From NCBI RefSeq assembly GCF_000826685.1, contig NZ_JROO01000001.1, positions 62,001 through 126,000 of the forward strand: a stretch of 64,000 bases of DNA. The letters run 5' to 3'. Under the pieces are notes generated by a model. That model was not told the origin of the DNA. It did no database searches and was given only the letters and a program-made list of their open reading frames with translations. The translations under genes and the position numbers were made by a program. The DNA is from Streptomonospora alba (GTDB lineage: Bacteria; Actinomycetota; Actinomycetes; Streptosporangiales; Streptosporangiaceae). Below are positions 13,510-50,741 of the stretch, in pieces; positions within the stretch are counted from its first letter, which is position 1; each line of letters begins with the position of its first letter.

Positions 13510-13869
13510 ATGGCGCCGGAGGAGACGCGGTACGGCCGGGTGGTGGAGCCCGGGGCGGTCGTGGAGGACGCCGAGGACCTCGGTTACCGGCCCGCCCCCG
13601 ATCGGGTGCGCGACCTCGCCGAACGCGGCCGCACGGTCCTCGTCCGCTGCGCGCCCCCGCCCTGCGCCGACAGCGGCCCCGCGCCGGGCCGGCCGGAGGA
13701 AGCGCGCGCCGCCGAGGCGGCCGAGGTGGCGCTGGCCTCGGTCTACGCCTGGCTCGGCGCCCGGGTCTTCGCCACCGGCCATCCGCAGGCGGTGCGCCAA
13801 GCCCTGGCGCTGGTCGCCTCGGCCCAGGGCCGCCGACCGCCCGCTGTGGCCCGCCGCGGCCTGGCCTAG
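13510..13869 (+). CDS. Conserved hypothetical protein, possibly related to the C-terminal part of dihydropteroate synthase-like proteins
   Basis: 119 residues starting MAPEETRYGRVVEPGAVVED. The second half, AWLGARVFATGHPQAVRQAL, resembles the last strand-helix unit of pterin-binding TIM barrels in pattern, but it is far too short for an enzyme and no pterin motif is visible. It may be a stand-alone remnant or an unrelated small protein. The start ATG is preceded by a G-run rather than a clear ribosome site. It diverges from the DivIVA-like gene and is followed by the 63-bp palindrome. Real coding is likely from codon use; function is unknown. Confidence 0.6.
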   Translation: MAPEETRYGRVVEPGAVVEDAEDLGYRPAPDRVRDLAERGRTVLVRCAPPPCADSGPAPGRPEEARAAEAAEVALASVYAWLGARVFATGHPQAVRQALALVASAQGRRPPAVARRGLA

Positions 13870-13930
13870 CCCGTCACGCCCGCCTCCACCGCCCACCGCG
13901 TCCAGCTCGATCCGTGCGCTCGCCTACCCC

Positions 13931-13993
13931 CGTTGATCTTGTACCTACGGTCACTGTGAGCGATCACATGTGCCCGTAGGTACAAGATCAACG
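13931..13993 (+). repeat. 63-bp palindromic repeat, copy 1
   Basis: Arms 13931-13954 and 13970-13993 are reverse complements with one mismatch. The centre TGTGA-GCGA-TCACA continues the stem and leaves a GCGA (GNRA-type) tetraloop on the plus strand. The reverse complement matches the element at 47516-47578 at 61 of 63 positions. It sits between convergent genes (ends 13869 and 14121), so a terminator or REP-like element is possible. Confidence 0.85.
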
Positions 13994-14120
13994 CTGAGAA
14001 GCGCGGCGGGTTCACTCCGGCCGCCGGCGGGGCCGGTCCTGCGGGGGCTTCGGCGCCGAGTCCGTCCGCGCAGACGGGCTCGGCGCGGGAAGCCCGCGGG
14101 AGACCGCACGCCTCACCCGG

Positions 14121-14939
14121 TCACGACGACTCCGAGGCCTCCTCGGCCGCGTGCAGGTCGGCGGCCTCGTCGGCCACCTGCCCCGCCTCGAACTCGCGGC
14201 GGGCCAGATCCACGTGGGACTTGCGGACGATCTCGACGACCTCGTCGGGGTCGTCGGTCAGATACATCAGCTCCGGATCGCCGGGCGAGATCGTGCCCTC
14301 TTCGAGCAGGGTGTCGCGGATCCAGTCGCGCAGGCCCGACCAGAACCGGGTGCCGACCAGCACCACCGGGAACCGGGTGACCTTGCCGGTCTGCACCAGG
14401 GTGATCGACTCGAACAGCTCGTCGAGCGTGCCGAAGCCCCCGGGCAGCACCACGAAGGCCCGGGAGTACTTCACGAACATCGTCTTGCGCACGAAGAAGT
14501 ACCGGAAGGTGACGCCGATGTCGATGAAGTCGTTGAGGCCCTGCTCGAACGGCAGCTCGATGCCGAGGCCGATCGACGTGCCGTCCACGTCCTGCGCGCC
14601 GCGGTTGGCCGCCTCCATGACACCGGGACCGCCCCCGGTGATCACGGCGTAGCCCGACGCGGCCAGCTTCGTGCCGATCTCCTGGCCGAGTTCGTAGAAA
14701 TGGGTGCCCGGCTTGGTGCGCGCCGAGCCGAAGACGCTGACCGCATGCCCGACCTCGGAGAGCAGGCCGAACCCCTCGACGAACTCCGACTGGATGCGCA
14801 GCACGCGCCACGGGTCGGTGTGCACCCAGTCGGCCGGTCCGCGGCGGTCCAGCAGGCGCTGGTCGGTCGTCGTTTCGGGTATCGCGTCTCCTCGGTAGGT
14901 GAGCGGTCCCGCGCTACGGGTCTTCCGAGATTCCGTCAT
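14121..14939 (-). CDS. LOG-family (TIGR00730) Rossmann-fold protein
   Basis: 272 residues with the LOG/lysine-decarboxylase-like signatures GGGPGVMEAANRGA and PGGFGTLDELFE, the nucleotide-binding and catalytic motifs of cytokinin riboside 5'-monophosphate phosphoribohydrolases. It is likely to hydrolyse nucleotide 5'-monophosphates; the in vivo bacterial role is uncertain. It is slightly longer than the minimal family through a variable N-terminus and an acidic C-terminal tail. The ATG at 14939 lies 6 nt after TAGCGT, suggesting a leaderless mRNA. The succinyl-DAP genes lie upstream on the same strand. Confidence 0.88.
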   Translation of the reverse strand: MTESRKTRSAGPLTYRGDAIPETTTDQRLLDRRGPADWVHTDPWRVLRIQSEFVEGFGLLSEVGHAVSVFGSARTKPGTHFYELGQEIGTKLAASGYAVITGGGPGVMEAANRGAQDVDGTSIGLGIELPFEQGLNDFIDIGVTFRYFFVRKTMFVKYSRAFVVLPGGFGTLDELFESITLVQTGKVTRFPVVLVGTRFWSGLRDWIRDTLLEEGTISPGDPELMYLTDDPDEVVEIVRKSHVDLARREFEAGQVADEAADLHAAEEASESS

Positions 14940-46467: not shown

Positions 46468-46881
46468 TCAACCGCGCAGATGCGGCCGGATGTCGGTCAG
46501 GAACGGGACGTCGGCGGGCAGCCAGTCGACGCCGCAGAGCCCGCCGGCATCCAACCAGCGCAGCGCGAGGTGCTCCAGCGCACGGGGTTCGGGCCCGTCC
46601 GCGGGCAGCTCGGCGAGCCACACCCGCAGCACGGCGGCCGAACCGTCGTCGCGGACGGGAAAGGAGACGTCGCCGCCGATCCGGCGCACCGGCTCGATGC
46701 GCACGCCCAGTTCCTCCTCGCACTCGCGCACGAGGGCGCGGGTGTCGGACTCGCCGGGATCGACCTTGCCGCCGGGAAGCTCCCAGCGCCCGCGCATCAC
46801 CGGGGGATGGGACCGCTGAGCGGCGAGCACCGCGCCGTCGCGGACGATCGCGGCGCCGACGACGATCTGGGAGTGGGGCAC
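46468..46881 (-). CDS. Nudix hydrolase, MutT-type 8-oxo-dGTP diphosphatase
   Basis: 137 residues with a complete Nudix box, GGKVDPGESDTRALVRECEE then ELGV (GX5EX7REUXEEXGU), preceded by MRGRWELP. The size, and an N-terminal strand starting directly at the start codon, suit MutT-like house-cleaning enzymes that hydrolyse oxidised dGTP, though other nucleotides are possible. The GTG at 46881 lies 6 nt after TAATCT, with no ribosome site. It is upstream of typA on the same strand, with a 169-nt gap. Confidence 0.85.
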   Translation of the reverse strand: MPHSQIVVGAAIVRDGAVLAAQRSHPPVMRGRWELPGGKVDPGESDTRALVRECEEELGVRIEPVRRIGGDVSFPVRDDGSAAVLRVWLAELPADGPEPRALEHLALRWLDAGGLCGVDWLPADVPFLTDIRPHLRG

Positions 46882-47515: not shown

Positions 47516-47578
47516 CGTTGATCTTGTACCTACGGTCACATGTGATCGCTCACAATGACCGTAGGTACAAGATCAACG
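47516..47578 (-). repeat. 63-bp palindromic repeat, copy 2
   Basis: The arms differ from perfect complementarity only at the outermost loop-proximal base. The centre reads TGTGATCGCTCACA on the plus strand, so the minus strand carries the GCGA tetraloop. It matches the reverse complement of 13931-13993 at 61 of 63 positions. It lies in an intergenic region between recD2 and the 148-residue ORF. Confidence 0.85.
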
Positions 47579-48491: not shown

Positions 48492-50741
48492 TCAGAAATC
48501 GGCCAGACGCTGCGCGAGAGCCGTGAACCGCCGCCCCGCGCCCGCGTTGCGCACCGCCTGGGCCAGCGCGCGGCGCGAGCCCACCAGCACGACCAGCCGC
48601 TTGGCGCGCGTGATCGCCGTATAGAGCAGGTTGCGCTGCAGCATCATCCACGCGCTGGTCGTGACGGGTACGACCACGGCCGGATACTCGCTGCCCTGCG
48701 AGCGGTGGACCGTCACGGCATAGGCGTGCACCAGCTCGTCGAGCTCGGCGAAGTCGTAGGCGATGTCCTCGTCCTCGTCGGTGCGCACCGCCACCGACTG
48801 CTCCACGCTGTCGATGCCTGCGATGACGCCGAGGGTGCCGTTGAAGACGCCGTTCGCGCCCTTGTCGTAGTTGTTGCGGATCTGGGTGACCTTGTCGCCG
48901 ACGCGGAAGATCCGGCCGCCGAACCGGCGTTCGGCCACGCCCTCGCGCGAGGGCGTCAGAGCCTGCTGCAACAGCACGTTGAGATTGCCCGCGCCGGCCG
49001 GCCCTCGGTGCATGGGCGCCAGCACCTGGATGTCGCGCCGCGGGTCCAGGCCGAACGTGCGCGGGATGCGGTTGGCGACCACGTCGACGGTCAGCTCGGC
49101 CGTGGCCTCGGTCTCCTCGCTGGGGAACAGGAAGAAGTCCGACATCCCCTCGAACCGCGGCGGGGTTCCCGTGTTGATCCGGTGCGCGTTGGTCACCACG
49201 CCCGACTCCTGGGCCTGACGGAACACGTGTGTCAGCCGCACCCGCGGCAGTGGCGAGCGCTCGTCCAGCAGGTCGCGCAGCACCTGTCCGGCACCCACCG
49301 AGGGGAGCTGGTCCACGTCGCCGACCAGCAGCAGATGCGCGCCCGGCGGGACCGCCTTGGCCAGCTTGTTGGCCAGCAGCAGGTCGAGCATGGACGCCTC
49401 GTCGACCACCAGCAGGTCGCAGTCCAGCGGATTGTCGCGGTCGTAGGAGGCGTCGCCGCCCGGCTTGAGCTCCAGCAGCCGGTGCACCGTAGAGGCTTCG
49501 TGGCCGGTCAGCTCGGTCAGCCGCTTGGCCGCGCGGCCCGTCGGGGCCGCCAGGACGATCTTGTGCTTCTTCGCGGCGGCCAGGGTGATGATGGAGGCGA
49601 CGGTGAAGGACTTGCCGCATCCCGGACCGCCCGTCAGAACCGCGACCTTGCGGCTCAGCGCCAGCTTGACCGCGTTCCGCTGCTCCTCGGCCAGATCGGC
49701 GCCGGTGCGCCGGCTCAGCCAGTCCAGCGCCACGTCCCAATCGACGTCGGCGAAGGCGGGCATGCGGTCGGCCGAGGCGTTCAGCAGCCCGCGCAACTGC
49801 CCCGCGAGCGCCTCCTCGGCCCGCTGGAAGGGCACCAGGTAGACGGCGGTCGTCTCCTCGCCGTCAGGGCCCACGACCTTCTCCGAGACCACGCCCTCCT
49901 CGGCGACCAGCCGGGCCAGGCACTCGATCACCAGAGCGGAGTCGACCTGCAGGATCTTCACCGCCTCGGCGATCAGCCGCTCCTCGGGCAGGTAGCAGTG
50001 GCCGTCGTCGGTGGACTCCGACAGCGTGAACTGGATGCCGGCCATCACCCGCTCCGGGCTGTCGTGCGGGATGCCGACGGCCTGGGCGATGGTGTCGGCG
50101 GTCTTGAAACCGATCCCCCACACGTCGGTGGCCAGTCGGTAGGGCTCGTTGCGGACGATCGAGATGGAGGAGTCGCCGTACTTCTTGTAGATGCGCACAG
50201 CGAGCGAGGTGGTGACCCCGATTCCCTGCAGGAAGACCATCACCTCTTTGATGGCCTTCTGCTCCTCCCAGGCGTCGGCGATCAGCTTGGTCCGCTTGGG
50301 GCCCAGCTTCGGTACCTCGATGAGGCGCTCGGGGGTCTGCTCGATGACGTCGAGGGCGTCGACGCCGAAGTGGTCCACGATGTGTTCGGCCAGCCGCGGC
50401 CCGATCCCCTTGACCAGGCCGGACCCGAGGTAGCGGCGCACGCCCTGGACCGTGGCGGGCAGGACGGTGGTGTAGTTGTCGACCATGAACTGGCGGCCGT
50501 ACTGGGGGTGGGAGCCCCAGCGCCCCTCCAGCCGCAGCGACTCCCCGGGCTGGGCGCCCAGCAGCGCGCCGACCACCGTGGTCAGCTCTCCGCCTCCGCC
50601 GCGGCCGTTGTCGATCTTGGCGACCGTGTAGCCGGTCTCCTCGTTGGCGTAGGTGATGCGCTCCAGGACGCCTTCGAGCACCGTCGGCCGGAACCCGCCG
50701 CGCTCACCGGAACCGCCGCCCCGGCCCGACCGCTGGGCCAT
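48492..50741 (-). CDS. recD2: RecD2-type 5'-3' DNA helicase
   Basis: 749 residues. The N-terminal part has OB-like and helix-hairpin-helix segments (GIGPRLAEHIVDHFGVDAL, then PKLGPKRTKLI). The SF1B helicase core follows: Walker A GGPGCGKSFTVASI (near 375), Walker B VVDEASMLD, motif III GDVDQLPSVGAGQVL, VHRSQGSEYPAVVVPV and the C-terminal AITRAKRLVVLVGS. It matches stand-alone RecD2 (not the RecBCD subunit), involved in DNA repair and replication restart. ATG 50741 has GGAAGGGG 7 nt upstream; the frame extends to 51017 without family similarity. Confidence 0.93.
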   Translation of the reverse strand: MAQRSGRGGGSGERGGFRPTVLEGVLERITYANEETGYTVAKIDNGRGGGGELTTVVGALLGAQPGESLRLEGRWGSHPQYGRQFMVDNYTTVLPATVQGVRRYLGSGLVKGIGPRLAEHIVDHFGVDALDVIEQTPERLIEVPKLGPKRTKLIADAWEEQKAIKEVMVFLQGIGVTTSLAVRIYKKYGDSSISIVRNEPYRLATDVWGIGFKTADTIAQAVGIPHDSPERVMAGIQFTLSESTDDGHCYLPEERLIAEAVKILQVDSALVIECLARLVAEEGVVSEKVVGPDGEETTAVYLVPFQRAEEALAGQLRGLLNASADRMPAFADVDWDVALDWLSRRTGADLAEEQRNAVKLALSRKVAVLTGGPGCGKSFTVASIITLAAAKKHKIVLAAPTGRAAKRLTELTGHEASTVHRLLELKPGGDASYDRDNPLDCDLLVVDEASMLDLLLANKLAKAVPPGAHLLLVGDVDQLPSVGAGQVLRDLLDERSPLPRVRLTHVFRQAQESGVVTNAHRINTGTPPRFEGMSDFFLFPSEETEATAELTVDVVANRIPRTFGLDPRRDIQVLAPMHRGPAGAGNLNVLLQQALTPSREGVAERRFGGRIFRVGDKVTQIRNNYDKGANGVFNGTLGVIAGIDSVEQSVAVRTDEDEDIAYDFAELDELVHAYAVTVHRSQGSEYPAVVVPVTTSAWMMLQRNLLYTAITRAKRLVVLVGSRRALAQAVRNAGAGRRFTALAQRLADF

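Follow-up and report, generated by a model that had tools for sequence, protein, structure and literature searches.

Dispersed 63-bp hairpin-forming palindromes of Streptomonospora alba: a probable mobile repeat family and landing pad for IS110-type elements

Two 63-bp palindromes lie in a 64,000-nucleotide stretch of the Streptomonospora alba genome, referred to here as the window, and both belong to a family with 57 copies in that genome. The family is probably a dispersed, non-autonomous, hairpin-forming DNA repeat of the REP/MITE-like kind, which has no RAYT in its own genome, is moved by a putative factor, and serves IS110-type elements as a landing pad. The original prediction, made from the window alone, had proposed a mobile REP/MITE-like element, and this part stood once the 57 copies were found; the RAYT partner and the RNA hairpin that it also considered gained no support. 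The features of the window are as follows.

13931..13993, plus strand: first palindrome (copy 1), a member of the recent subfamily B, with CACTGTGAGCGATCACATGTGCCC at its centre
47516..47578, minus strand: second palindrome (copy 2), a member of the recent subfamily A, with CATTGTGAGCGATCACATGTGACC at its centre on the minus strand
13931..13954, plus strand: left arm of copy 1, with the near-invariant GATCTTGT at 13935-13942
13970..13993, plus strand: right arm of copy 1, containing GGTACAAGATC/AACG
13883..13930, plus strand: left flank of copy 1, about 50 bp, common to other subfamily-B copies

Both palindromes lie where they were first placed, and the agreement of 61 of 63 bases after inversion is correct: by eye, the only positions at which copy 1 disagrees with copy 2 in reverse complement are 24 and 43. 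A repeat search extends their similarity to 68 nt at 94%. The 63-mer, with the ends CGTTGATC...GATCAACG, occurs in the exact form of copy 1 at 7 further places in the genome, and the left flanks of two loci in the subfamily-B flank comparison (L035 and L038) are 93% identical over 56 bp. As single-stranded DNA, the two copies fold with energies between -28.5 and -30.8 kcal/mol (z between -11 and -13), and none of 200 shuffles was as stable. The outer stem has 20 pairs in copy 1 and 23 in copy 2; it gives way to a small bulge or internal loop and then to 5 inner pairs, which are capped by a GCGA tetraloop (read as TCGC from the opposite strand), in line with the stem extension and GNRA tetraloop expected for the centre. 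Copy 1 is downstream of a called gene at 13510-13869 (plus strand) and also of one at 14121-14939 (minus strand), the latter with matches to Lysine_decarbox and LDcluster4. Copy 2 lies in the long gap between two called genes of the minus strand, 46468-46881 and 48492-50741.

The family was sought in the whole assembly (G000; 5.91 Mb, 110 contigs, 97.5% complete). When as many as 3 mismatches were allowed, the arm pattern gave 116 matches and its reversed control 0. A covariance model found 57 places, each on both strands, with one weak place (E 0.006) left out, and a pattern search likewise returned 57 copies. A local duplication of the two window copies is ruled out by this number; instead of two copies without conservation in relatives, a family was found that is beyond chance, intergenic and present in relatives as well. 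All 57 copies are 63 bp long, and 63 bp is also the length of the copies from fetched stretches of G005 (n=22), G011 (n=17, one of which has other tips) and G004 (n=20), where the length script tested 59-62 for the portion without the outer base pair. The stem of the family comprises 23-24 outer positions, a single one-sided unpaired base and five inner pairs, closed by a loop that is usually NCGN. Two types of centre occur, GTGA-GCGA-TCAC and GGAAA-NCGN-TTTCC. GATCTTGT is present in both arms of 57 of 57 copies; the tips are also part of the detection rule, and their conservation is therefore partly built in. At one locus (L015, G000:C18:78563) a copy is cut down to one arm and fused directly to the usual flank, which is the form of a deletion derivative.

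More than half of the copies (32 of 57, both window copies among them) form a recent GTGA-centred subfamily. Recent copies have common flanks of up to about 270 bp, the length varying from pair to pair, and some of these flanks are mosaic; for instance, L074 has its left flank as in L048 and its right flank as in L022. None of the five other genomes of the genus (G001-G005) has copy 1 in the corresponding gap. Copy 2 is absent in G004, at an alignable junction, and the matching gaps of G001, G002, G003 and G005 contain no exact GATCTTG or CAAGATC tip. A further S. alba site, L133, is also empty in G004. Since the window copies, both of the newest subfamily, have no counterpart at the corresponding position in five relatives, the repeat moves. 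By eye, no target-site duplication was seen in the flanks of the copies, the empty sites of copies 1, 2 and L133 being not alignable at the level of single bases. G005 has a decayed, palindrome-like stretch centred on GAAAACGTTTTC (L208 1440-1495; G005:C1 about 3489624), roughly 3 kb away from its counterpart of the copy 2 site.

Eight sites are common to sister species, five with G005 and three with G004, as found by BLAST pairs among 20 fetched stretches of each. At the five sites shared by G000 and G005 the palindrome is present in both, and all five follow one rule, in which G000 has GTAC arms and G005 has GTAG arms, mirrored on the opposite side. Nearly all copies read of each species follow the same rule: arm pair 14/50 is C-G in 55 of 57 G000 copies and G-C in 21 of 22 fetched G005 copies. 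The recent subfamily occupies 0 of the 5 sites shared with G005 and 2 of the 3 shared with G004. In several pairs of shared sites the centre fits better when inverted, and the hairpin centre occurs in either orientation relative to the flanks, both within the S. alba genome and between species. Conservation at shared sites together with concerted change of the arms could equally reflect a bound protein.

The two arms change together throughout the family. In an alignment of 33 sequences, picked out of 43 thinned ones with three less regular ones left out, the cells in which both partners had changed numbered 67; shuffling gave 26.4 on average, none of 500 shuffles came as high, and slid versions of the structure gave 9-25. 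For all 101 distinct copies of four genomes the compensated cells numbered 305; in 300 shuffles they averaged 127 and peaked at 152. Single genomes also exceeded their shuffle maximum (in brackets): G000 59 (38), G011 26 (19) and G005 14 (12). G004 alone, with 8 compensated cells, had no excess over its shuffles (mean 5.3, maximum 11). Relatedness of the copies remains in these shuffle controls, and a symmetrical protein site would fit the compensated changes too.

Beyond S. alba, 29 of 250 genomes of the family (S. alba included) have a match at E <= 0.001, in 12 of 68 genera, the weak matches among them possibly being other palindromes. Within the genus, matches occur in G000, G001, G004 and G005 (4 of 6 genomes), and G002 and G003 have 0. 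Related repeats are also found in Nocardiopsis. In other genera the tips are kept and the remainder is changed, with length and centre varying from 44 to about 90 bp. Copy 1 has no match in plasmids or phages, and such an origin of the repeat was rejected. In G004, the palindromes at eight loci (L179, L183, L184, L185, L189, L191, L193 and L197) sit within gene-free blocks of about 1-2 kb, which are similar to one another (best pieces about 77-84% identity) and internally repetitive. The one block that was read contains further inverted repeats, and two of the eight were tested against Rfam with no match.

These observations could alternatively be explained by a conserved site for a chromosomal DNA-binding protein of the nucleoid or segregation type, a species-level change in whose specificity dragged all the sites along. 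The fixed length in copies from four genomes, the near-invariant GATCTTGT in both arms and the eight shared sites with species-specific arm versions all suit such a site. Nevertheless, two members of the same genus have no match at all, the recent burst of near-identical copies carries common flanks, both window copies are absent in relatives, and the repeats of other genera differ in their centre and in their length (44 to about 90 bp). A stem of at least 20 pairs would also exceed the need of a dimer site. We consider a protein site credible but unlikely.

It can also be proposed that the family has no dedicated mover, and that the spread and homogenisation of the repeats come solely from gene conversion or the repair of breaks at cruciforms. 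The mosaic flanks (L074 against L048 and L022) are of the kind expected, as is the inversion of the centre relative to the flanks between some shared sites. Against this stand the new sites, which are absent in relatives, and the recent subfamily (32 of 57 copies), which is found at 0 of 5 of the G000-G005 shared sites (2 of 3 for G000-G004). Conversion or repair as the only process is thus doubtful, and a mobile repeat family is the preferred reading.

The copies lie between genes, as was originally suggested. With neighbourhoods taken from an ad hoc gene caller, 0 of 57 are inside called genes, and 6 run some 5 bases into the end of a gene. The neighbours are convergent for 29 copies, tandem for 20 and divergent for 6, the other 2 copies lying at contig or stretch edges. 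Convergent gaps therefore hold 29 of 55 placeable copies; among the 102 other gaps that are 63 bp or longer, taken from the window and long S. alba loci, 20 are convergent (Fisher p 3e-5). Within a mobile family, the host may tolerate copies where they do the least harm, that is downstream of genes. The convergent bias and the very stable hairpin might also speak for a bidirectional transcription terminator or an mRNA 3′-end hairpin, and a small terminator-like site does occur on the minus strand at 47594-47579, its tail being the tip of the copy 2 palindrome. However, there are 0 terminator-like sites around copy 1 (13700-14300), and the copy 2 palindrome itself forms none. No T-run follows the palindrome stem as an intrinsic terminator requires, with only the small neighbouring hairpin at copy 2, and the cross-genus conservation of the stem-base sequence is not needed by terminators.

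Pairing in RNA was looked for as an excess of G-T over A-C mismatches. When pair 24-40 and the recent S. alba copies are set aside, the ratios of G-T to A-C are 17:22 in G000, 12:10 in G005, 19:18 in G011 and 14:14 in G004. With everything included they become 44:28, 14:10, 19:19 and 31:15, respectively. The G-T excess with pair 24-40 and all copies, seen in G000 and G004, would suit an RNA reading; it arises because pair 24-40 is T-G in one subfamily. There is no clear sign of RNA pairing from this comparison, which is a weak test, and the RNA hairpin option is accordingly not supported. The lack of a clear wobble signal tells against a terminator as well, and we regard that function as improbable. 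A known RNA family is ruled out by the absence of any Rfam match at the gathering score in the whole 64-kb window. An integron attC site was rejected by its end motif, which runs in the opposite direction.

The best-known REP-like repeats are those of Gram-negative bacteria with a RAYT partner, and a REP that relied on a RAYT (Y1) transposase for its movement would account for an intergenic, bulged hairpin in many copies. Y1_Tnp (the RAYT domain, PF01797) is matched in 8 of 20 genomes and does not track the palindromes: it accompanies the repeat in G001, G005, G227 and G232, is missing in seven genomes with palindrome matches (G000, G004, G011, G114, G255, G261 and G270), and occurs in G006, G009, G012 and weakly G013, where the palindrome has no match. 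The search for a RAYT that had been advised for this genome thus found no match to Y1_Tnp, RAYT is rejected as the mover for S. alba, and the RAYT explanation is highly improbable. Up to 3 kb from the copies, or nearer where the stretch was shorter, there is no recurrent mover-like gene; the recurring neighbour clusters are, as judged by eye, ordinary and widespread protein types. Among the same neighbours no autonomous relative with the same ends was found. The gene between the two L060 copies was considered as a transposase and dropped, since by eye it looks AbiEi-type.

Since the S. alba genome has no RAYT and no recurring mover gene, we infer a trans-acting factor that would read the near-invariant GATCTTGT at the base of the stem. 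GATCTTGT might be read as a double strand, in a cruciform or in a single-strand hairpin. The same factor may drive both the copying and the homogenisation of the repeats.

The arm of the palindrome is itself entered by IS110-type elements. In one S. alba copy (G000:C22; L043/L220) the arm is split by an element with DEDD_Tnp_IS110 (1.7e-21) and Transposase_20 (3e-21) domains. GGTACAAGATC/AACG, which copy 1 contains, is the IS110-type entry sequence in other copies; copy 1 itself has not been entered. In G011, where no whole IS110-type element was found, two contigs (L173 and L176) stop 41-51 bases into a closely similar element end, which comes after the same point of the arm. In G114 a 67% relative of the element lies likewise in a palindrome arm (L222), and a second, partial match (281 bases) also ends in one (L224). 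Entry into the arm is therefore seen in three genera, in one of them through element ends at contig ends only. G128 has two copies of a 66% relative outside palindromes, in a gene that by eye looks IS30-type. In f21, a 33% IS110-type relative adjoins a palindrome of the 72-bp type that is broken in its centre (G387, L252, about 1232-1265).

The non-coding left end of the IS110-type element folds in silico with an internal loop. According to PMC11208160, IS110 bridge-RNA guides match the target; the left guide reads in the same sense as the top strand of the target, and the right guide is complementary to its right side. The predicted guides and targets share, as exact letters with the core TC included, 9 + 6 in G000, 9 + 9 in G114 and 4 + 4 in G128. 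Letter shuffles reach the G000 matches in 0 of 4000 cases on the left and 3% on the right, those of G114 in 0.025% each, and those of G128 in 50% and 38%. When guide pairs are crossed, the left guide of G000 fits the G114 target equally well, both targets being palindrome arms, and the right guide of G000 fits the G128 target equally well. The G128 relative was dropped as a third guide match after the strict test gave only 4 and 4 letters. As the guides match in G000 and G114 and not in G128, two of three elements support an RNA-guided entry into the arm. IS110-type elements would thus use the arm as an insertion site through a predicted bridge RNA whose target guides match it. This link between IS110-type elements and the palindrome family is new.

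Another type of element is found in the centre of the palindrome. At L073 (3164-4405) an element that we take to be IS30-type, HTH_38 being its sole Pfam match above the cut-off, splits an S. alba copy at the centre with a two-base CG repeat (by eye). An IS30-type element or remnant also lies in the palindrome centre at L079 (3075 onward). The transposase frame looks broken into overlapping pieces.

The tips of the stem reach beyond the family. The exact pattern GTTGATCTTG...CAAGATCAAC with a gap of 24-54 is matched in 20 of 296 genomes of the class, in 8 of 114 genera, and its reversed control gave 0 in every entry shown; one genome of another family (f21) has 99 matches. The repeats of other families have only the GTTGATCTTG tips in common with those described here. 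From these letters the tips would seem homologous across families, convergence also being possible. Tentatively, there may be a superfamily that shares the stem-base GTTGATCTTG/CAAGATCAAC with unrelated centres and lengths (about 44-90 bp), in several actinomycete families and in up to 99 copies per genome. An undescribed factor other than a RAYT might recognise the stem base as DNA and both copy and homogenise the members, and the bridge RNAs of IS110 elements might have been repeatedly programmed to this stem base.

MITEs are short and non-coding, with terminal inverted repeats. The palindromes resemble them in all three respects and in their recent multi-copy burst, but are almost all arm, and neither a target-site duplication nor an autonomous partner was found. 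REP elements, according to PMC3733652, are palindromes of 20-40 bp with a GTAG or CGTC tag at one end; that paper mentions neither actinobacteria nor a word starting with GATC. Like REPs and REPINs, the S. alba repeats are intergenic imperfect palindromes in tens of copies, with species-specific versions, and are IS110 targets. Unlike the REP/RAYT system, they are 63 bp long, have no GTAG or CGTC end tag and share their genome with no Y1_Tnp. Associations of IS110 elements with REPs are given for IS621, ISPpu9, ISPpu10, ISPa11 and ISRm19 in PMC1525189. The entry of an IS110-type element into a palindromic repeat is the same in those cases and in ours; however, here the repeat is a different one, the hosts are actinomycetes and the guide match is a prediction. 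No paper describing the palindrome family was found, by title or abstract start, in the open literature searched.

Our analysis indicates that a family of length-locked, covarying palindromes exists in an actinomycete with no detectable RAYT, which calls for another mover. Concerted evolution can be tested directly on the sites that the species share and whose arm versions change together. With targets that are known and recur in high-GC hosts, the IS110 insertions provide natural bridge RNAs and a natural test of the guide rules.
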